Source of the DNA: Streptomyces canus
GTDB taxonomy: Bacteria; Actinomycetota; Actinomycetes; Streptomycetales; Streptomycetaceae
DNA length: 64,000 nt
Assembly (NCBI RefSeq): GCF_041435015.1
Contig: NZ_CP107989.1
Span: 10,168,001-10,232,000 of the forward strand
Direction of reading: 5' to 3'
A model generated the notes under the pieces. The model did not search any database. It worked only from the letters and a program-made list of their open reading frames with translations, and was not told the origin of the DNA. Numbering within the stretch: the stretch's first letter is position 1; each line of letters begins with the position of its first letter. Shown in pieces: positions 1,214 to 48,190 of the stretch. The translations under genes and the position numbers were made by a program.

Positions 1214-3637
1214 TCACTCCTCCTGCGTGACCAGCACGGTTCCGCGCAGCCGCAGGTCACGCGACGAGGAGCCGACCGCCACGTCCCGTTCCCCGCCGCC
1301 GAGCACCCAGCGATGGGCGTCGGCCGACCAGCTCGACAGTTGCCGCGGGCTCAGGTGGAGCACCACGTCCTGCGCCTCGCCGGGCTCCAGCGTCAGGCGC
1401 TGACAGGCGGCCAGTGACCGCACTGCCTGTGGCAGATCAAGGCGCGGGGACGGACCGACGTAGACCTGGGCCACCTCGGTGCCCCGGCGGCTTCCGGTGT
1501 TGCGGACGGTGAAGGAGACGTCGAACCCGTGGCCGGCCGGTGTGGTGCGCAGGCCCTCGTAGGCGAACTCGGTGTACGACAGTCCGTGTCCGAAGGGGAA
1601 CAGGGGCTCCACGCCGTGGGCGTCGTACCACCGGTAGCCGACGTGGATGCCCTCCTTGTACGTGACCTTGTCGTCCACTCCCGGATAGCTCTCGGGGTCA
1701 CCCGCGACGGGGTGGCCGTCCTCGTCGGCGGGGAAGGTCAGCGGGAGTTTGCCGCCGGGTGCCTCGTCGCCGAAGAGCAGCGCGGACGTTGCCTCCGCGC
1801 CCTGCTGGCCGGGGTACCACATCTGCAGTACGGCGGCGACGTCCTCCAGCCAGGGCATGGTCACGCACGTCGAGGAGTTGAGGACCACCACGGTGCGGGG
1901 ATTGGCGGCGGCGACGGCCTTGATCAGTTCGTTCTGGGCGGCGGGCAGGGAGAGGGTGGCGAGGTCCTGGCCCTCGGTGGTGTCCTGCCAGGCGAAGACC
2001 ACGGCGGTGTCGGCCGCTTGTGCGGCCCGGACCGCCTCAGTCCTGTGGGCGGCCCGGGTGGCCGAGGTGAGCAGGCGGAGCCGGAAGCTCAGCCCGTCCG
2101 TGCCTCCTCGCGCCTCGACGGAGAGGGAGTGAGCACCGGCCGCCACCGGCACGGTGACGGCCCGTGCCCGCAGTCCGTCGACGGTCTCGCCGGTCAGTCC
2201 TCCGGCGAACCACTCCTCCATTTCCGGCAGTTCGGGGAAGAGGTCGGTGCCGTCCAGGACGATCCGGGGGCGGGTGACCGGACCGAACAGATCCCGCTGC
2301 GACCAGTGGACGACGAACGTCCACTCGTCGTCCTGCTCGACGGTGAGCGTGCCGTCGTACCGCCACGAGTCGTCGCGAGTGAGGGCGTCCGGGCCGGTCC
2401 GGTCCAGGGAGACGGCCGGGTTCAGGGCCGAGACGGGCACGGGTCCGCCGAAGTGGTCCGCCCCGAGCGAGTAGGTGACGGAGGCGTCGTCGCCCGCTCG
2501 CTGACGGATCGCGTCGACCGGAGCGGTGGCACGGTCGGGCAGCACATGGGAGCTGCCGCCGCCGCTGACGAACGGCACCGCGCCGGTCAGGCCGATGACG
2601 GCGAGGGAGCGGGTGGCGTCGCCCGTCAGCGGCAGCACGTCTTTGTCGTTGCGCAGCAGCACGGCGCCGGCGATCGCGATCTCCTGGGCCGTGCGCGCAC
2701 CGGCGGCGGAGTCCCGGACCGGGCGCGGCGGGGCCGAGCCGTCCAGCAGGCCGAAGCGGTCCAGCACCGTCAGGATGCGGCGCACCGCCCGGTTGAGGTG
2801 GGCCTCGGAGACGTCCCCGTCGAGCACCGCCTTCTTCAGCCGCGCTCCGAAGTACTCACCTGTCGGCATCTCCATGTCGAGCCCCGCCAGCAGCGAGGCC
2901 CCGGTGCTGTGCGTCGCCCCCCAGTCGGACATCACCCAGCCGGTGAAACCCCATTCGTCCCGGAGCAGCGTGGTGAGCAGGTCGGTGTTCTCGCACGAGA
3001 AGGCCCCGTTGACCGAGTTGTAGGCGGCCATCACGGTGCCGGCCCCGGCCTGTACGGCCGCCTCGAAGGGAGGAAGCTCCATCTCCCGCAGGGTCTGCTC
3101 GTCCACGCGCGCGTCGACCGAGGTGCGCCGGTGCTCCTGGTTGTTCACGGCGAGGTGCTTGACCGTGGCGATCGTGCCCTGATCCTGGACGCCCCGGATC
3201 TGTGCCGCGGCCATCTCGGCGGTGAGGAAGGGGTCCTCACTGAACGTCTCGAAGTTCCGGCCGCCGTAGGGCGTGCGGATCTGGTTGACCATGGGGGTCA
3301 GCAGCACGTCCTGCCCCAGGGCTCGGGCCTCGTGGCCGATGACGCCGCCGAAGGCTTCGGCGAACTCAGGCGCGAAGGTCGCGGCGAGCGCGATGGGTGC
3401 GGGCATGGCGGTCGCGGGGATGGTCAGGCGGGGGCCCACCGGTCCGTCGGCGAGCCGCAGGGAGGGGATGCCGAGTCTCGGCACCCCGGGTACGTAGCCG
3501 GCTTCCCCCAGATGGTCGCCCTCGGCGTCGCCGCCGTGCACCAGGGAGATCTTCTCGTCGAGGGTGAGCCGGTCGAGCAGGACGGAGACACGGTCCGGTT
3601 CGGCGGCGCCGAGCGGCGCGCTGGAGACATCGGGCAT
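1214..3637 (-). CDS. glycoside hydrolase family 3 (beta-glucosidase-like)
   Basis: An 807-residue GH3 enzyme. The N-terminal barrel carries KHLAVNNQEHRR near 160 and the nucleophile motif VMSDWGATHS with Asp238. A (alpha/beta)6 domain follows; within it, at roughly 410-560, is an insert resembling a PA14 carbohydrate-binding domain (WRYDGTLTVEQDDEWTF and following). The protein ends in a fibronectin-III-like domain starting near FPFGHGLSYTEF. This is the usual domain set of beta-glucosidases and beta-xylosidases of about 800 residues. No signal peptide is visible, so the substrate is probably imported first. ATG 3637 (MPDVSS) is preceded by AGGTG; the longer in-frame start at 3814 adds 59 arginine-rich residues and was rejected. 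A LacI-type operator lies 222 bp upstream. Confidence 0.9.
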   Translation of the reverse strand: MPDVSSAPLGAAEPDRVSVLLDRLTLDEKISLVHGGDAEGDHLGEAGYVPGVPRLGIPSLRLADGPVGPRLTIPATAMPAPIALAATFAPEFAEAFGGVIGHEARALGQDVLLTPMVNQIRTPYGGRNFETFSEDPFLTAEMAAAQIRGVQDQGTIATVKHLAVNNQEHRRTSVDARVDEQTLREMELPPFEAAVQAGAGTVMAAYNSVNGAFSCENTDLLTTLLRDEWGFTGWVMSDWGATHSTGASLLAGLDMEMPTGEYFGARLKKAVLDGDVSEAHLNRAVRRILTVLDRFGLLDGSAPPRPVRDSAAGARTAQEIAIAGAVLLRNDKDVLPLTGDATRSLAVIGLTGAVPFVSGGGSSHVLPDRATAPVDAIRQRAGDDASVTYSLGADHFGGPVPVSALNPAVSLDRTGPDALTRDDSWRYDGTLTVEQDDEWTFVVHWSQRDLFGPVTRPRIVLDGTDLFPELPEMEEWFAGGLTGETVDGLRARAVTVPVAAGAHSLSVEARGGTDGLSFRLRLLTSATRAAHRTEAVRAAQAADTAVVFAWQDTTEGQDLATLSLPAAQNELIKAVAAANPRTVVVLNSSTCVTMPWLEDVAAVLQMWYPGQQGAEATSALLFGDEAPGGKLPLTFPADEDGHPVAGDPESYPGVDDKVTYKEGIHVGYRWYDAHGVEPLFPFGHGLSYTEFAYEGLRTTPAGHGFDVSFTVRNTGSRRGTEVAQVYVGPSPRLDLPQAVRSLAACQRLTLEPGEAQDVVLHLSPRQLSSWSADAHRWVLGGGERDVAVGSSSRDLRLRGTVLVTQEE

Positions 3638-3858
3638 GGCAGCACCTGTCTGAGGGTCGGAAGAGAGCAGTGGCACGTGCGAAGCGCCGCCGGGAGAGCG
3701 ACGTGAACGGCCGACAGCGACGGGCCGTCGTGGGGAGCCGCCGCGGGCGACGACGCCCGGTGGCAGAGGGCGTCCGTGAGTCTCCTCGGCCGAATGCCGA
3801 GAACATTTCCTCATAAGACGGGGCGAACCTAGTCACACCTCGTGACTCGCGTCAATGG

Positions 3859-3874
3859 ATTGAACCGATTCAAT
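3859..3874. promoter_or_regulatory. LacI-type operator upstream of the GH3 gene
   Basis: ATTGAACCGATTCAAT is an inverted repeat with 6-bp arms (ATTGAA/TTCAAT) around CCGA. The core matches the GAAnCGnTTC pattern typical of LacI-family operators. It lies between the GH3 start (3637) and the TetR stop (3915), where the GH3 promoter should be. No LacI gene is adjacent, so a regulator elsewhere in the genome would have to act. Confidence 0.5.
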
Positions 3875-3914
3875 GCGGCATCGAGTCCATGGGCGGAACG
3901 TCTTCCGGGTCGGC

Positions 3915-4490
3915 CTACCGGAGGTCGAAGGCCGTCAAAGCCTCTTCCAGTACGGCGAGTTGGCGCTTGGCCGGCCAGTCGTCGTGGTGCTCGACGGCTG
4001 CGAGCACGATGCCGTTGACGGTCACCCGCAGCAGATCGACGTAGGTCTCCACCCGGTCCTCGGGAACCAGCGGCTCCAGGTGCCGCCGCAGCAGGTCCCG
4101 CATCCTGGCGTCCGTGGAGTTGGCGAACTCCTCGAAGCTCGCGTCCTTGCCGCGCTGGCTGAGCAGCTGGACCCTGCCGCTCTCGTTCACCCACTCCTGA
4201 TCGGTGAGCGGCAGCATCCACTCCAGGAGGATGCGCAGCCGGCCGTGCGCGTCGGCGCCGGTCTCCAGGTCGGCGAGCTCCGTGTCGTAGCCCTCGTTCA
4301 TGGCGGTGACCACGGCCCGCATCAGCTCGGGCCGTGTCGGATAGAAGTGTGTGACCAGGGTGATGGAGCCGCCGAGCCGCTTGGCCACGGAACGGATGGT
4401 CAGTTCGGCGGGGCCGCCGTTGGCGAGCACATGCTTGGCCGCCTCGACGATGTCCGCCCGGCGCTGGTCGTGGTCTACGTAGCGGGGCAC
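3915..4490 (-). CDS. TetR-family transcriptional regulator
   Basis: A 191-residue protein with an N-terminal TetR helix-turn-helix (IVEAAKHVLANGGPAELTIR, then SVAKRLGGSITLVTHFY) and a helical ligand domain with no identifiable ligand. The start is GTG at 4488-4490 (VPRYVDHDQRRADIV) with GAGAAG just upstream; this gives the normal TetR length. The frame stays open much further upstream, but those residues have no domain character. It is divergent from the acyl-CoA synthetase gene across 395 bp that contain a promoter with an internal palindrome, so it is the likely local repressor of the 4.9-19.9 kb catabolic cluster. The inducer is unknown, perhaps a substrate or CoA thioester of the pathway. 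Confidence 0.85.
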   Translation of the reverse strand: MPRYVDHDQRRADIVEAAKHVLANGGPAELTIRSVAKRLGGSITLVTHFYPTRPELMRAVVTAMNEGYDTELADLETGADAHGRLRILLEWMLPLTDQEWVNESGRVQLLSQRGKDASFEEFANSTDARMRDLLRRHLEPLVPEDRVETYVDLLRVTVNGIVLAAVEHHDDWPAKRQLAVLEEALTAFDLR

Positions 4491-43042: not shown

Positions 43043-43740
43043 AACGGCACCTCCTGAGGGCATAAGGACACGAAAGGACCGCAGGAGCGCACGCCTGCTC
43101 GCGACGCGTCCCGCGGTGTGCCTGTGGCCTAAGCACTCGCCCTCAGCCTAAACACACGACCTTCCGGCCCGGTACAGGGCCTCACCTGCCAGAAGTTCGA
43201 AATCGCGGGCTCGCGGAGTCGTCGGGCTCCAGCCTTGGCTGTCGTGTGCGGCGAAGAGTTCGAGAGTTCCCGGACAGGCGTGTGTGCTCCTGAATGGACG
43301 GCGGAGGGTGCGGAGGCTGGATCCGAACATCGCACGGGAGGCAGTACGGATCCTGGTGGCGACGCTCGAGACTGAGGACTGGACGGTGGAGCCGACCACC
43401 ACCACCGCCGTCGACGAGTGGCGTGTGCGGTACCGGAGGGAAGAACCGCTGCCCATCGATGCTCATCGTCCCCGGCCAAGGGGCGCCAGTACACACGGTG
43501 GCGCGACGACCACGACGGACACCAGGACGACCAGACACTGCACCAGTGTGGTGGAGATTCTCTGCTGCTCTCTCGGCTCTGGCCCCTGTCCGGGGAGGAG
43601 ATCGATCTTGCTTCGTAGACGGCGAAACGGGACCCGGAACGGCACGCAACGAGCAGCAGCTACGACGATGGCTCGGACCGGCCTGACCGCAGCCGCTCCG
43701 AGCCGTCCCTCGTCCAAGGCCGCCGGATCGCGAGCTCTTA
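43043..43740. other. 698 bp with a possible unknown gene fragment
   Basis: On the plus strand, codons from about 43310 to 43460 look coding (RLDPNIAREAVRILVATLET, then EDWTVEPTTTTAVDEW), but no start, family or proper end could be assigned. The rest is not recognised. The IS5-family element inserted at its right edge (TTA at 43738-43740). Confidence 0.4.
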
Positions 43741-43852
43741 GAAGCTGTTGTCTTTTCGGGCGTGATCGGTGCGTTTCCGCTGGTCGGGGATAGCAGTGGT
43801 GATTCCGTGGGAGTCGTGGCCTGTCGGGTCGTCGCTCCCCGGGAGGTCACGA

Positions 43853-44389
43853 ATGCCGTCCGTCGTCGGACTGCTGGAACAGCACGAGGTCGCCGCTCGC
43901 CGTCGAGTCGACGGGCTGCGGGAGGAGGCCGACCGCATCCAGGCCGAACTGGCCGCGGCCGAGCAGGAATGGCAGGAGTGGGCGATTGCCCGCAGGCGGG
44001 TCGACACGGTGCTGGCTCCGGACGGCGGCAACACCGCCGGCACAGAGGTCACTGAGGAAGCGCGGGATGCGGACGCGCCGCCGGAACCCCGGGACGCGGC
44101 GAAGCCGAAGTCGCAGGTTCCGGTGTGGCGCCAGGGGCTGGCCTGGTCGGTGCTGTCGGTCGACTACCAGCGCATCCTCACGACGCTCGCAGACCGGGAC
44201 CGGCTCCATCAAGGGCCGCTGACCTGCCAGGAGATGGCCCAAGCGTTCGGCATGGACGTGGTGCCGGCACGAGTGGAGGCACTGCGGTCGAAGGCGAAAC
44301 GCCTGGTCGCGCGGGGCTGGCTGGCCGAGCGGCAGCCGGGCCGGTTCACCCTCGCGGCAGGCGTGACCGGGCCAGGCGGCGCGTCATGA
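43853..44389 (+). CDS. IS5-borne companion protein, coiled coil plus winged-helix-like
   Basis: A 178-residue protein. Residues 1 to about 58 are a heptad-rich coiled coil (LLEQHEVAARRRVDGLREEA; DRIQAELAAAEQEWQEWAIA). A variable linker follows, then from about 95 a winged-helix-like domain (VLSVDYQRILTTLADRDRLH; GPLTCQEMAQAFGMDVVPAR; VEALRSKAKRLVARGWLAER). GGGAGG lies 6 nt before ATG 43853. Its last 44 nt overlap the 3' end of the transposase gene on the other strand. Similar proteins recur in streptomycetes in my memory but with no named function. A role in target choice, transposase control or DNA-end binding is inference. An ordinary host gene trapped by the IS is less likely because it fills the space between the end and the transposase. 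Confidence 0.75.
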   Translation: MPSVVGLLEQHEVAARRRVDGLREEADRIQAELAAAEQEWQEWAIARRRVDTVLAPDGGNTAGTEVTEEARDADAPPEPRDAAKPKSQVPVWRQGLAWSVLSVDYQRILTTLADRDRLHQGPLTCQEMAQAFGMDVVPARVEALRSKAKRLVARGWLAERQPGRFTLAAGVTGPGGAS

Positions 44390-45263
44390 GCAGGGTCATC
44401 GACCAGTAGACCATCGCCTCGGCGCTGGCCGTGCGCCGCTCGAAGTCGCGCACCAGACGGCGGCTTCGCATCAGGTGGGCGAAGAACCGCTCGACGATCC
44501 ACCGCTTGGGCAGCACCACGAAGCCGCGCATGTCGTCGCTGCGTTTCACGATCGCCAGGACCAGCGCGAGCGTGGCCAGGCAGTGCTCGACCAGGCTGCC
44601 GGTGTAGCCGCCGTCGGCCCAGACCAGTTCCAGCCGGTGGTGCACGTCGGCGACCTGCCCAAGCAGGCCCTGGGCGGCGATGCGGTCACCGGTGTCCGCG
44701 GCGGTGACCATCACACCCAACAGCAGGCCGAGCGTGTCGACCACGACATGCCGCTTGCGCCCGTTGACCAGCTTGCCGCCGTCGAAGCCCCGGCTGTCCG
44801 CGCCGACCACCGCGTCCGCTTTGACGGACTGCGAGTCGATCACCGCGGCCGTCGGCTCCGCATCCCGCCCCAGTTCCTCGCGGGCCCTCGCGCGCAACCG
44901 GTCGTGGAACTCCTTGACCAGAGCGTTGTCCCGCCAGCGGCGGAAGAATGCGTAGACGCGGTCCCACGGAGGGAAGTCGGCGGGCATCGCCCGCCACTTG
45001 ATCCCGTTGTCCACGAGATACCGGATCGCATCGAGCATCGCCCGGTGGCAGTACCCCTCCGGCCGGCCTCCCCGGCCGCGCATCCAGCCCGGCACCGGCA
45101 GCAGCGGGCAGACCGCGGCCCACTCTCCGTCCGTCATGTCGGTCGGGTAGCGAGGCTGCCGCTTCCCGTTGTCGGCGGCGTTTCCGAACCGGTGAGCCAG
45201 GCAGTCACACTCCCAGGTGACCGCGCTGGACTGCCCGGCCATCGGCACGCAAGACTGCTGCAC
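44346..45263 (-). CDS. IS5-family transposase
   Basis: A 305-residue DDE transposase. The N-terminal IS5 domain is TDMTDGEWAAVCPLLP with GRGGRPEGYCHRAMLDAIRY and WRAMPADFPPWDRVYAFF. The triad is Asp in AAVIDSQSVK, Asp in LVWADGGYTG and Glu in RWIVERFFAHL. GTG 45263 has AGGAGG 5 nt upstream. The frame is intact to the stop, so it may be active. Its 3' end overlaps the companion gene, giving antisense transcripts that could restrain transposition. Confidence 0.92.
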   Translation of the reverse strand: MQQSCVPMAGQSSAVTWECDCLAHRFGNAADNGKRQPRYPTDMTDGEWAAVCPLLPVPGWMRGRGGRPEGYCHRAMLDAIRYLVDNGIKWRAMPADFPPWDRVYAFFRRWRDNALVKEFHDRLRARAREELGRDAEPTAAVIDSQSVKADAVVGADSRGFDGGKLVNGRKRHVVVDTLGLLLGVMVTAADTGDRIAAQGLLGQVADVHHRLELVWADGGYTGSLVEHCLATLALVLAIVKRSDDMRGFVVLPKRWIVERFFAHLMRSRRLVRDFERRTASAEAMVYWSMTLLMTRRLARSRLPRG

Positions 45264-45406
45264 CAGGGCCTCCTGCTGCTCGGTGATTCGACACCAACGA
45301 GCTGTTCAGGAGGCCCTGTTCGTATGCGCCCAGCGTCCCGCGACCACCCGATCGGGACTCCCGTTCGACGCGCATCCCTCAAGATCGAAAAGACAACAGT
45401 TTCTTA

Positions 45407-45813
45407 CTCCAACAGCGCGGCTCGGCCGCTGCCCATCAGCTCCGGTACGCGCTTGCAGATCGTGTTCTTGTTGACATCTGGGTGTCCACGATCTCGTCAT
45501 CGCCCCGGCCGCCGCCGCTCGCCACACCGTGCTCCGCGCCGCTTTGCCCATGAGACACGCCTACCGGTACAGGGCGCTGCGGGTCGCGAGGAGGATCGGG
45601 ATCGAGAGGCGGTGTGCTCGCCAAGCCGCCCGAGCTCTCTGCTCACGTTGGCTCGGCGCTCTCCATGACGGCCTTGAGGAGCGGTATGCCTTGGCCGTCA
45701 TCGTGGGGCAGCAGTTGCCCGCAGGCGCACGGATGACGCCCGTTCCGTCCGGTGCCCCGTACGCGGAGAGGGGGCGCCGAACGGAACTACGGCGTCCGGG
45801 AGGTGGGTACCGC
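45407..45813. other. 407 bp with no recognised gene
   Basis: The plus strand reads openly for about 90 codons (ARHTVLRAALPMRHAYRYRA and following), but no start, domain or family could be seen. It continues the sequence interrupted by the IS5 element at 43740. Confidence 0.45.
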
Positions 45814-46129: not shown

Positions 46130-48190
46130 TCAGGAGGTGGGCTGGAACGTCCACAGCAGGTTGTTGTTGGTCACCCAGGTCCACTGCTTGGTCACGGACC
46201 CGGAGGGGACCTGTCCGCCGCCGTCGAGGACGAGTCCGGTGGTGCGGTTGGCGATCGAGTACTGGCCGTTGCCGCGGTCGGTTATCTTCCACTGCTGGTG
46301 GGGGCCGCCGTTCCAGGCCTCTTGCTGAGCTGGAGCGCCGTTGCTGGTCGAGCCCCAGCCGTCGGCGACCATGCCGTTGGCGCGGTTGACCAGCCTGTAG
46401 TAGCCGTCGCCGAGGTCGACGGCCTGCCACTGGAGGTTGGGGCTGTCGACCGGGGTCCACTGCTTGAGGTTCGAGCCGCCGGCGACGTTGCCGCCGCTGT
46501 CCAGGGCCAGACCGTCCGTGACGTTGATCAGACGGAAGTACGTGGCCGGATTGAAGGTGACCTTCAGCGAGACGATGGCGTCGTTGTTGCCGGTCACCCG
46601 CAGGTCGGGATTGTCCGCGGTGAACGTCCAGGCCGTGCCGGTGAAGTTGTCGCCGGAGTAGCCCGTCACCCGGTAGCCCTGGGGCACCCTGAGCGAGGAG
46701 ATGGTCGCGGAGCCAACTCCCGCGGCCGACAGCTGGGAGGAGGTGTAGTTGCCCAGCGTCAGGACGGCGCTCGCCGAGGAGTAACTGACGTCCTGGAACA
46801 CGGTCACCCGGGCTCCGCCGGCGGCCGTGGGGACGCCGCTGACCTCGACGCAGACCACGGAGTCATTGGCGTCCGGGGCGGTAGCCGGCACGGTGACGCT
46901 GATCTGGCCGCCGCTGACGGTGTAGGTGAGCGAGGCCGAGGGGTTGTTCATCAGGTAGACGCGGCTGATCGTGTTGGTGATCGCCGGGATCTGCAGCACG
47001 CCGTCCGTGGGCCAGGTGAAGACGTGGGCGAACAGCTTGCCGTCCTTCTTGGTGGCCCTGCCCCAGGTGGGGTCGGTGGTGAAGGGGCTTGCCGTGGCTC
47101 CGTGCACGCTGTCGCCGTACGTCGCCATCCAGGAGGCCAGGCCGCGCAGGATGGTCACGGATCCGGCGGTGACCGAGCCGTCGCCCTTGGGGCCGATGTT
47201 CAGCAGGAAGTTGCCGTCCCGCGAGACGCAGGTGACGAGCTCCTGAACGAAGTCCCTGACGGGGCGGTAGGAGTTCTCTCGGCCCGACTGGTAGCCCCAG
47301 GCGCCGTTCATGGTGTCGCATCTCTCCCACTGGCGGTCCAGCGGCGCGTTGGGGACACCGAACTCCGCGACCGTGTAGTCGCCCAGGCCGAGGTCCCGCT
47401 TGACCCGTTCGTTGACGACGAGTTGGGGCTTGCGGGCGATCAGCCAGTTGTAGAGGTCGACACCGTCCGACCGCAGCCACCAGTCCTCGAGGGTGGGGCT
47501 GGAGGGTTCGCCGAACCAGTCGCCGTCGAACCACAGGAGCGCCGGGTCGTAGCGGTCCAGCAGCTCCTGCAGTTGGGCTTTCATGTCCGCGATATAACCC
47601 GTGCGGGCGGCCTGCGAGGCCATCGTCGTGAGACCGCTTCGGATGGTCTGGGAGGGGTGGTTCCAGTCCAGGATCGAGTAGTAGAGCCCGAACTTGACGC
47701 CGCGTGCCTCGCACTCGGTCTTGAGCGCCGCCAGCAGATCACCCTGGACACCGGCGTAGTCGTGCAGGTTGTACAGCTTCGTGCCGGTGGTGTCGGTGAA
47801 GCCGGGGACGTTGGAGTCCCACATGGCGAAGCCTTCATGGTGTTTGGCAGTGATGACCAGGTACTTCATGCCGGCGTCCGCCGCCAGTTGGGCGATGGCT
47901 GCCGCGTTGAACGCGGTGGGGTTGAAGTGCGCGGACACCTGGGTCTGGTAGTTGGCCTTGGACCAGCTCTCGGAGCTGAAGGCCCATTCGCCGTGGCCGA
48001 GGTAGGAGTAGGACCCGAAGTGGATGAACATCCCGAACCGGGCCTGGTACCACCAGTCCATCTTCGAGGAGACCGAGTACGCCTCGGCGGCGGTGGGCCA
48101 CAGGGCCTGCGGCAGTCCGAAGGCCACGGTGCCGCCGGCGAGCGCGGCGGCCTTGATGAGGGAGCGCCTGCTGAGGGGAGCGGAGGTCAT
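46130..48190 (-). CDS. secreted alpha-L-fucosidase, GH29, with crystallin-like and ricin-like domains
   Basis: A 686-residue exported enzyme. A Tat signal (SRRSLIKAAALAGGTVAFGL) has likely cleavage near AEA-YS at 37. The GH29 barrel (MDWWYQARFGMFIHFGSYS; ITAKHHEGFAMWDS) carries the nucleophile Asp222 in LLWFDGDW. A beta-sandwich follows. From about 470 a beta/gamma-crystallin-like domain appears (VTVFQDVSYSSASAVLTLGN; VTGYSGDNFTGTAWTF). The last 130 residues form a ricin-type lectin module (YRLVNRANGMVADGWGS; QQWKITDRGNGQYSIANRTT). It would release fucose from host or plant glycans outside the cell. ATG 48190 has GGAG 7 nt upstream. It is single-gene transcribed, with its own terminator. Confidence 0.93.
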   Translation of the reverse strand: MTSAPLSRRSLIKAAALAGGTVAFGLPQALWPTAAEAYSVSSKMDWWYQARFGMFIHFGSYSYLGHGEWAFSSESWSKANYQTQVSAHFNPTAFNAAAIAQLAADAGMKYLVITAKHHEGFAMWDSNVPGFTDTTGTKLYNLHDYAGVQGDLLAALKTECEARGVKFGLYYSILDWNHPSQTIRSGLTTMASQAARTGYIADMKAQLQELLDRYDPALLWFDGDWFGEPSSPTLEDWWLRSDGVDLYNWLIARKPQLVVNERVKRDLGLGDYTVAEFGVPNAPLDRQWERCDTMNGAWGYQSGRENSYRPVRDFVQELVTCVSRDGNFLLNIGPKGDGSVTAGSVTILRGLASWMATYGDSVHGATASPFTTDPTWGRATKKDGKLFAHVFTWPTDGVLQIPAITNTISRVYLMNNPSASLTYTVSGGQISVTVPATAPDANDSVVCVEVSGVPTAAGGARVTVFQDVSYSSASAVLTLGNYTSSQLSAAGVGSATISSLRVPQGYRVTGYSGDNFTGTAWTFTADNPDLRVTGNNDAIVSLKVTFNPATYFRLINVTDGLALDSGGNVAGGSNLKQWTPVDSPNLQWQAVDLGDGYYRLVNRANGMVADGWGSTSNGAPAQQEAWNGGPHQQWKITDRGNGQYSIANRTTGLVLDGGGQVPSGSVTKQWTWVTNNNLLWTFQPTS

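Follow-up and report, generated by a model that had tools for sequence, protein, structure and literature searches.

Classical IS5 elements have a single gene, or two genes in one direction. Why, then, does the IS5-family element at positions 43741–45403 of the window (the whole stretch of 64,000 nucleotides of Streptomyces canus DNA analysed here) carry an additional gene, referred to below as the companion, that converges with its transposase gene from the opposite strand, and what might the product of this gene do?

An IS5-family element with a convergent gene

The insertion sequence is complete, measures 1663 bp and shows the following features:

43738..43740, no strand: left target-site duplication TTA, read from the sequence (TNA duplications are present at 6/6 copies in the host genome)
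43741..43758, plus strand: left terminal inverted repeat GAAGCTGTTGTCTTTTCG, 17/18 against the right end
43841..43847, plus strand: ribosome-binding site of the companion, GGGAGGT, read from the sequence
43853..44389, plus strand: companion gene, 178 aa, ATG start, based on reading frame, AlphaFold2 model and dN/dS
44346..44389, no strand: antisense (tail-to-tail) overlap of the two reading frames, 44 nt, stop codons included
44346..45263, minus strand: IS5-family DDE transposase, 305 aa, GTG start, based on NF033580 and Pfam DUF4096 plus DDE_Tnp_1
45264..45275, minus strand: leader hairpin, 3' arm (transcript sequence CAGGAGGCCCTG), which holds the ribosome-binding site of the transposase and lies directly before the GTG start
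45307..45318, minus strand: leader hairpin, 5' arm (transcript sequence CAGGGCCTCCTG), complementary to the 3' arm over all 12 bp
45386..45403, minus strand: right terminal inverted repeat GAAACTGTTGTCTTTTCG, an inverted copy of the left end, 17/18
45404..45406, no strand: right target-site duplication TTA, read from the sequence

A curated transposase model, terminal inverted repeats and a short duplication place the element in the IS5 family. Its transposase scores 189 bits against NF033580 (transpos_IS5_3; NCBIfam cut-off 110), and 82.8 and 76.5 against Pfam DUF4096 and DDE_Tnp_1, respectively, each above the cut-off. The inverted-repeat arms extend to 34 nt with 79% matching. A previous, sequence-only reading of the locus had delimited an IS5 element by its 17/18 ends and the TTA on each side, and had described tail-to-tail genes with a 44-nt antisense overlap and an intact 178-residue gene with a strong ribosome-binding site of its own; all of this was confirmed, and the observation is far beyond chance. 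The departure from the usual IS5 layout lies in the second gene, which is on the opposite strand and additional to a complete transposase. A scan of positions 43700–45450 for a sigma-70-type promoter and a terminator-like site found none. Adjoining the element, at 46130–48190 on the minus strand of the window, is a 686-aa gene whose translation, judged by eye, resembles a secreted alpha-L-fucosidase with a ricin-type carbohydrate-binding tail.

Six copies of the element are present in the host genome (10.7 Mb, five contigs). Five of them, the window's included, are located on contig C1, are identical at 1663/1663 bases and are flanked by the duplications TGA, TGA, TCA, TTA and TTA. The sixth (L006, C3:35387–37048, on an 84-kb contig) has a TTA duplication and an intact companion; its transposase is frameshifted by a 1-bp deletion, and this copy can presumably be moved only in trans. 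The comparison of sites with and without the element, suggested by the sequence-only reading, could be made for the C1 copy at 6.9 Mb, which has two empty counterparts elsewhere in the host genome. In these, 500 bp of the left flank continue without interruption into the right flank, only one TTA marks the junction, and the rightward match of 21–23 bases stops where the repeated host sequence stops. Six copies, TNA duplications and an empty site document that the element moved in the past.

A search of the host genome for the end motif with at most two mismatches returned 12 sites (one for a reversed control pattern), all of them at the ends of the six copies; hence this genome harbours no copy with these ends that lacks the companion, a type of copy that would have spoken against a fixed association. 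In Streptomyces canus NBC_00350, a plasmid encodes a companion of identical sequence, which is annotated as 'hypothetical protein' next to an 'IS5 family transposase'. The host genome also contains a decayed relative of the element (L009, C1:10103120–10103798), with companion residues 1–37 at 62%, a transposase piece at 64–66% and frame breaks between them.

Constraint on the companion and its linkage to the transposase

The AlphaFold2 model of the companion consists of an N-terminal coiled-coil helix (residues 4–54), a disordered linker (59–86) and a C-terminal winged helix (about 100–168). The protein is thus predicted to be a rod in which a disordered tether connects a coiled coil to a winged helix, in agreement with the fold proposed in the sequence-only reading. 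Searches of Pfam and NCBIfam yielded no model that covers the companion above cut-off, a sequence search of the PDB gave no relative (best E 0.42), and phage records contained no match to the family. A GGAGG motif is present within 20 nt 5' of the chosen start in 23 of 33 companion representatives, two of the 33 having only 3 nt visible. Matches to the window's companion comprise 1144 database proteins, and 240 of 392 sampled same-genus genomes contain one (distant members included, with at most eight candidates scored per genome). Across a phylum sample of 396 genomes, clear matches were confined to same-genus genomes, with three borderline ones elsewhere, and the 80 named loci (the best 80 of 462) all belong to Streptomyces, Kitasatospora, Streptacidiphilus or Actinacidiphila.

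In each of 412 close pairs drawn from 77 elements, dN/dS of the companion is below 1, with a median of 0.43 for the whole protein. Medians for the individual parts are 0.17 (coil), 1.05 (linker) and 0.32 (winged helix before the overlap); the transposase has 0.24. In a broader and more saturated set of 3011 pairs the ratio rises to 0.55 in the companion, with 0.31 (coil), 1.09 (linker) and 0.49 (winged helix) for its parts, and to 0.35 in the transposase. Judged by these ratios, coil and winged helix are constrained and the linker is not, which means that the protein is kept and not just the DNA.

A convergent IS5 transposase lies within 400 nt of the companion at 103 of 109 loci of close homologues, and two of the other six loci sit at contig edges. 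This set combines the 29 best genus matches with the 80 named loci, which were retrieved with a single peptide pattern; its members were chosen by score and duplicates were retained. More distant companions (44–55% identity) likewise adjoin a convergent transposase, complete or in part, in 20/20 cases, several of these transposases being pieces. Forty loci and three further sets of 20 were hand-picked among the matches listed. Close homologues are therefore not found mainly away from IS elements. Moreover, companion and transposase diverged together (Mantel r 0.92 for 87 elements, a value reached in 0 of 999 permutations). The claim of the sequence-only reading that the companion is fixed inside the element is borne out by these data, and sequence comparison shows that the companion belongs to the element as an integral component and is under selection.

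Viewed from the transposase, 70 loci were examined, of which 68 were long enough; the companion is present at 53/68 and absent from 15/68, namely at L104, L108, L095 and twelve loci at 48–51% identity. Its presence changes three times on the transposase tree compared with 13.7 times in shuffles, and L104 and L108 branch among companion carriers (this tree, like the companion tree described below, has long branches and a midpoint root). L108 is a compact one-gene IS of 1062 bp whose ends are clear and flanked by a TGA duplication, and its transposase type occurs at four places in its genome (one inspected), which argues against a strict need for the companion. An obligate helper function is made unlikely by the companion-less L104/L108 branch. 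According to its distribution, the companion is typical of this IS clade and not indispensable for every relative. An inverted-repeat search around eight companion-less transposases found clear ends with a TNA duplication at L108 only. Twelve IS5_3-type transposases without companion (L109, L111–L120, L122) are possibly old or domesticated; an inverted-repeat search around six of them (L109, L112, L114, L115, L116, L119) revealed none that was conspicuous.

Relatives of the companion in other transposase backgrounds

The sequence-only reading had assigned the companion to an IS5 element, where it is indeed present, but missed that the family is not limited to IS5. At the level of sequence, three transposase lineages in Streptomyces carry it: IS5 DUF4096/DDE_1, IS5 DDE_Tnp_4 and ISKra4. 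The gene is convergent in the first of these, and located upstream on the same strand in the other two.

The companion directly precedes a DDE_Tnp_4 transposase, a group that NCBIfam IS5 models match below cut-off only, at 25/30 companion-anchored and 24/30 transposase-anchored loci (overlapping sets). It is absent from the expected place at 5/30 and 6/30 loci, respectively, long transposases such as L424, L432 and L437 among them, and was found upstream of 0/20 more distant DDE_Tnp_4 transposases (39–45% identity). One genome contains two near-identical element copies of ~1.68 kb with 22-bp identical ends, and comparison of the two established no target duplication.

Assignment to ISKra4 is based on NF033572 (cut-off 205), against which the transposases at L358, L363 and L372 score 312.2, 301.6 and 304.6 bits, respectively; L359, whose frame is interrupted, reaches 182.5 bits and remains below the cut-off. 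The companion is located upstream at 5/5 ISKra4-type loci with at least 52% identity and most of the transposase covered. When all ISKra4-type loci are counted, 6/30 carry it upstream, most of the other 24 being pieces without the 5' part; loci without an upstream companion also include the short pieces L401 and L408, which reach the 5' part, and the longer, more distant L395 (40%). A unit of 2.27 kb with GGGTGYGG... ends is common to ISKra4-type copies of one genome, and five of seven aligned copies are flanked by a 9-bp duplication, e.g. TTGTCCTTT, ATCGGACAT and ATTGGATTT; it is absent at L377 and L378. At least seven ISKra4-type elements of ~2.27 kb with companion, representing more than one subtype, are present in a single genome, G128 (L377–L381, L383, L384).

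Homology of the companions across IS types is supported by a pairwise match of 79 bits (E 2e-23) between an ISKra4 companion and that of the window, and by profile scores of up to 150 bits. The profile for distant companions was built from matches that include L007 of the second type; profile-independent support comes from the same pairwise match and from a single-sequence match with E 2.8e-6. Nineteen hand-picked distant companions were associated with ISKra4 (7), DDE_Tnp_4 (5), convergent IS5 transposases or pieces thereof (6) and, in the case of L369, with remnants only. A tree of 67 companions places the members of each IS type in a group of their own (supports 93/81, 100/99 and 89/58), with two type changes compared with a shuffled mean of 25.9. 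The gene thus moved from one transposase lineage to another on at least two occasions and was retained thereafter; this tree has several long branches and a midpoint root, and transfer may have gone in either direction.

At nine companion loci (L041, L161, L192, L283, L284, L306, L314, L318 and L321), three transposase profiles detected no transposase. Two of these loci harbour distant companion-like genes, L283 at 3577–4023 (plus) and 2522–2938 (minus) and L284 at 2501–2995 (plus), which possibly represent a further background or stand-alone relatives. L182 has its transposase upstream on the same strand.

Possible functions of the companion and comparison with known systems

The sequence-only reading described the transposase gene and overlooked a conserved hairpin over its ribosome-binding site. 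The 106-nt leader folds with −61.9 kcal/mol, compared with −40.8 kcal/mol in shuffles (z −5.6). In 62 aligned leaders, including that of the window, 93.9% of stem cells are paired, and the value drops sharply when the partner is slid. The stem contains 23 double-change cells (shuffled mean 7.5), a count that is inflated by kinship among the aligned sequences; this count and the covariation score exceed those of all 500 shuffles. The numbers of pairs with double change (4) and of pair types (10) are not above shuffles, which reached them in 140/500 and 301/500 cases, and the RNAalifold covariation term is small (−0.52). Mean pairing of the transposase ribosome-binding site exceeds 0.8 in 60/62 leaders; the companion's site is also paired (0.70), and therefore pairing alone is weak evidence. 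A hairpin whose stem is changed and, by eye, still complementary is also found in L108, an element without companion, and a companion-dependent switch is thus not supported. From its conservation the hairpin looks like a feature of the transposase that is independent of the companion, and it may restrain transposase output separately. Directly 5' of the hairpin's 5' arm, a block of GGGTGATC, ~16 nt and GCATGA is conserved (window 45320–45349, minus strand: GGGTGGTC...GCATAC), which may be a candidate promoter or operator.

What the companion itself does may be approached by comparing its parts between IS types. Convergent IS5 and ISKra4 companions share a mean identity of 0.57 (helix 3), 0.58 (wing), 0.36 (coil) and 0.14 (linker); the respective values for convergent IS5 and DDE_Tnp_4 companions are 0.38, 0.45, 0.21 and 0.15. 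Within IS types, coil identity amounts to 0.53–0.59. The ends of the three element types are unrelated. Since the coil is kept within and not between IS types, and helix 3 and wing are most alike, a partner-specific coil and a shared contact with DNA or host are suggested. The companion may dimerise via its coil or use it to bind its transposase, and the winged helix would contact DNA. The coil would accordingly be fitted to something specific for the element, be it the companion itself as a dimer or the transposase, and the winged helix would touch something common. It is less likely that the companion reads the ends of its own element, as helix 3 is conserved across IS types whose ends are unrelated.

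We therefore favour, with a probability of roughly 0.6, an IS-encoded accessory protein that modulates transposase output or activity and was recruited by three lineages. In such a scenario, the companion would influence how much transposase is made or how well it works, and the occurrence of the companion-less L108 type at four places suggests that it modulates rather than catalyses. A regulator is somewhat more likely than a positive helper. It is tempting to speculate further, albeit tentatively and with the odds against it, that the companion is a transposase-agnostic cofactor whose coil was re-fitted to each transposase and whose common winged helix ties the complex to a shared Streptomyces DNA feature or host protein, thereby setting where or how often the elements jump.

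Helper, regulator and antisense-controlled pair were the options named in the sequence-only reading. A role in transposition is retained in the model favoured here, and the antisense pair does not hold as a general explanation. It would have as its main function that the convergent overlap makes each transcript the antisense RNA of the other, and it is compatible with the scan that found no terminator-like site, with an overlap of exactly 44 nt in 81/103 close relatives and with the same antisense phase in 61/66 members of a broader convergent set. Yet shared ancestry alone can give a conserved phase, overlap length varies in that broader set (mostly 29 to 86 nt), and constraint on the protein is strong. 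Above all, the gene is upstream of and co-directional with the transposase in two other IS backgrounds, so that antisense control cannot explain the companion family and is out as its common function; we regard this possibility as very improbable.

Somewhat less remote, though still unlikely, is a passenger gene without a part in transposition that helps the host or simply rides along. Transporter ISs, which carry passenger genes unrelated to transposition, are treated as a recognised class in parts of PMC3129680 and PMC9330008. An extra gene is present in the window element, and its link to transposition is one that we infer. The nine companions without a profile-recognised transposase and the L108 type, found without companion at four places (one inspected), are in line with a passenger. 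By contrast, one fixed architecture, with its invariant 44-nt overlap in most close relatives, would be unexpected for a neutral gene, and purifying selection on coil and winged helix as well as the association with three transposase lineages in two gene arrangements speak against it. Alternatively, and with a likewise small probability, the companion may act on the host, for example in escape from silencing, defence against other elements or growth control, so that copies persist. The resemblance of the DNA-facing region between IS types with unrelated ends is as expected for a shared host target, and a host-directed role would also fit the taxonomic confinement of the family described above, both in the phylum sample and among the named loci. 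However, a host target and a phenotype are hypothetical for the companion, and the coil varies with the IS type, an indication that its partner is specific to the element. On balance, an accessory protein that modulates the transposase remains our preferred reading.

How does the element compare with known systems? One-gene IS5 elements of the NF033580 group (DUF4096 plus DDE_Tnp_1) are alike in transposase family, short terminal inverted repeats and a 3-bp TNA duplication, and the window element differs from them by the convergent gene added between the 3' end of the transposase gene and the terminal repeat. IS493 of Streptomyces lividans has two tandem ORFs. In leaders of the IS10/IS50 type a stem-loop hides the ribosome-binding site of the transposase, which would damp translation. 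The window hairpin may be regarded as analogous; unlike those leaders, it abuts a GTG start and belongs to an IS5-family element. For the predicted winged helix of the companion, DNA-binding proteins with a MarR/MntR-like fold served as the class of comparison; a toxin-antitoxin module was considered as well, the partner gene of the companion being a transposase. IS21, with IstA and IstB, resembles the window element in that an IS encodes a transposase and a second protein that is retained with it. IstB is described in a section of PMC3129680 as a helper with an ATP-binding domain, and no ATPase model was among the Pfam and NCBIfam matches of the companion.

Extra genes also occur in some members of the ISKra4/ISAzba1 elements: the portion of PMC3942029 considered here describes one branch of the ISAzba1 group with a common conserved ORF (pRiA4_Orf3-like) and, in a Mutator-like group, four ISKra4 elements that carry different genes without a known function. 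The coiled-coil/winged-helix family is not named in that portion of PMC3942029; in the present work it is common to two IS5 subgroups as well and thus extends across transposase families. A search of the openly licensed PMC literature found no description of the companion family. Extra genes in ISs are known as a class, and what is new here is a single companion family across IS5 subgroups and ISKra4. Many 'hypothetical proteins' annotated next to transposases are thereby given a context, and relatives of the companion inside two other kinds of element suggest a helper or governor of DNA jumping that can be reused. IS accessory proteins are usually tied to one transposase family; a family that crossed between IS5 and ISKra4 and subsequently persisted in both would demonstrate that transposition can be regulated or targeted in a modular way.
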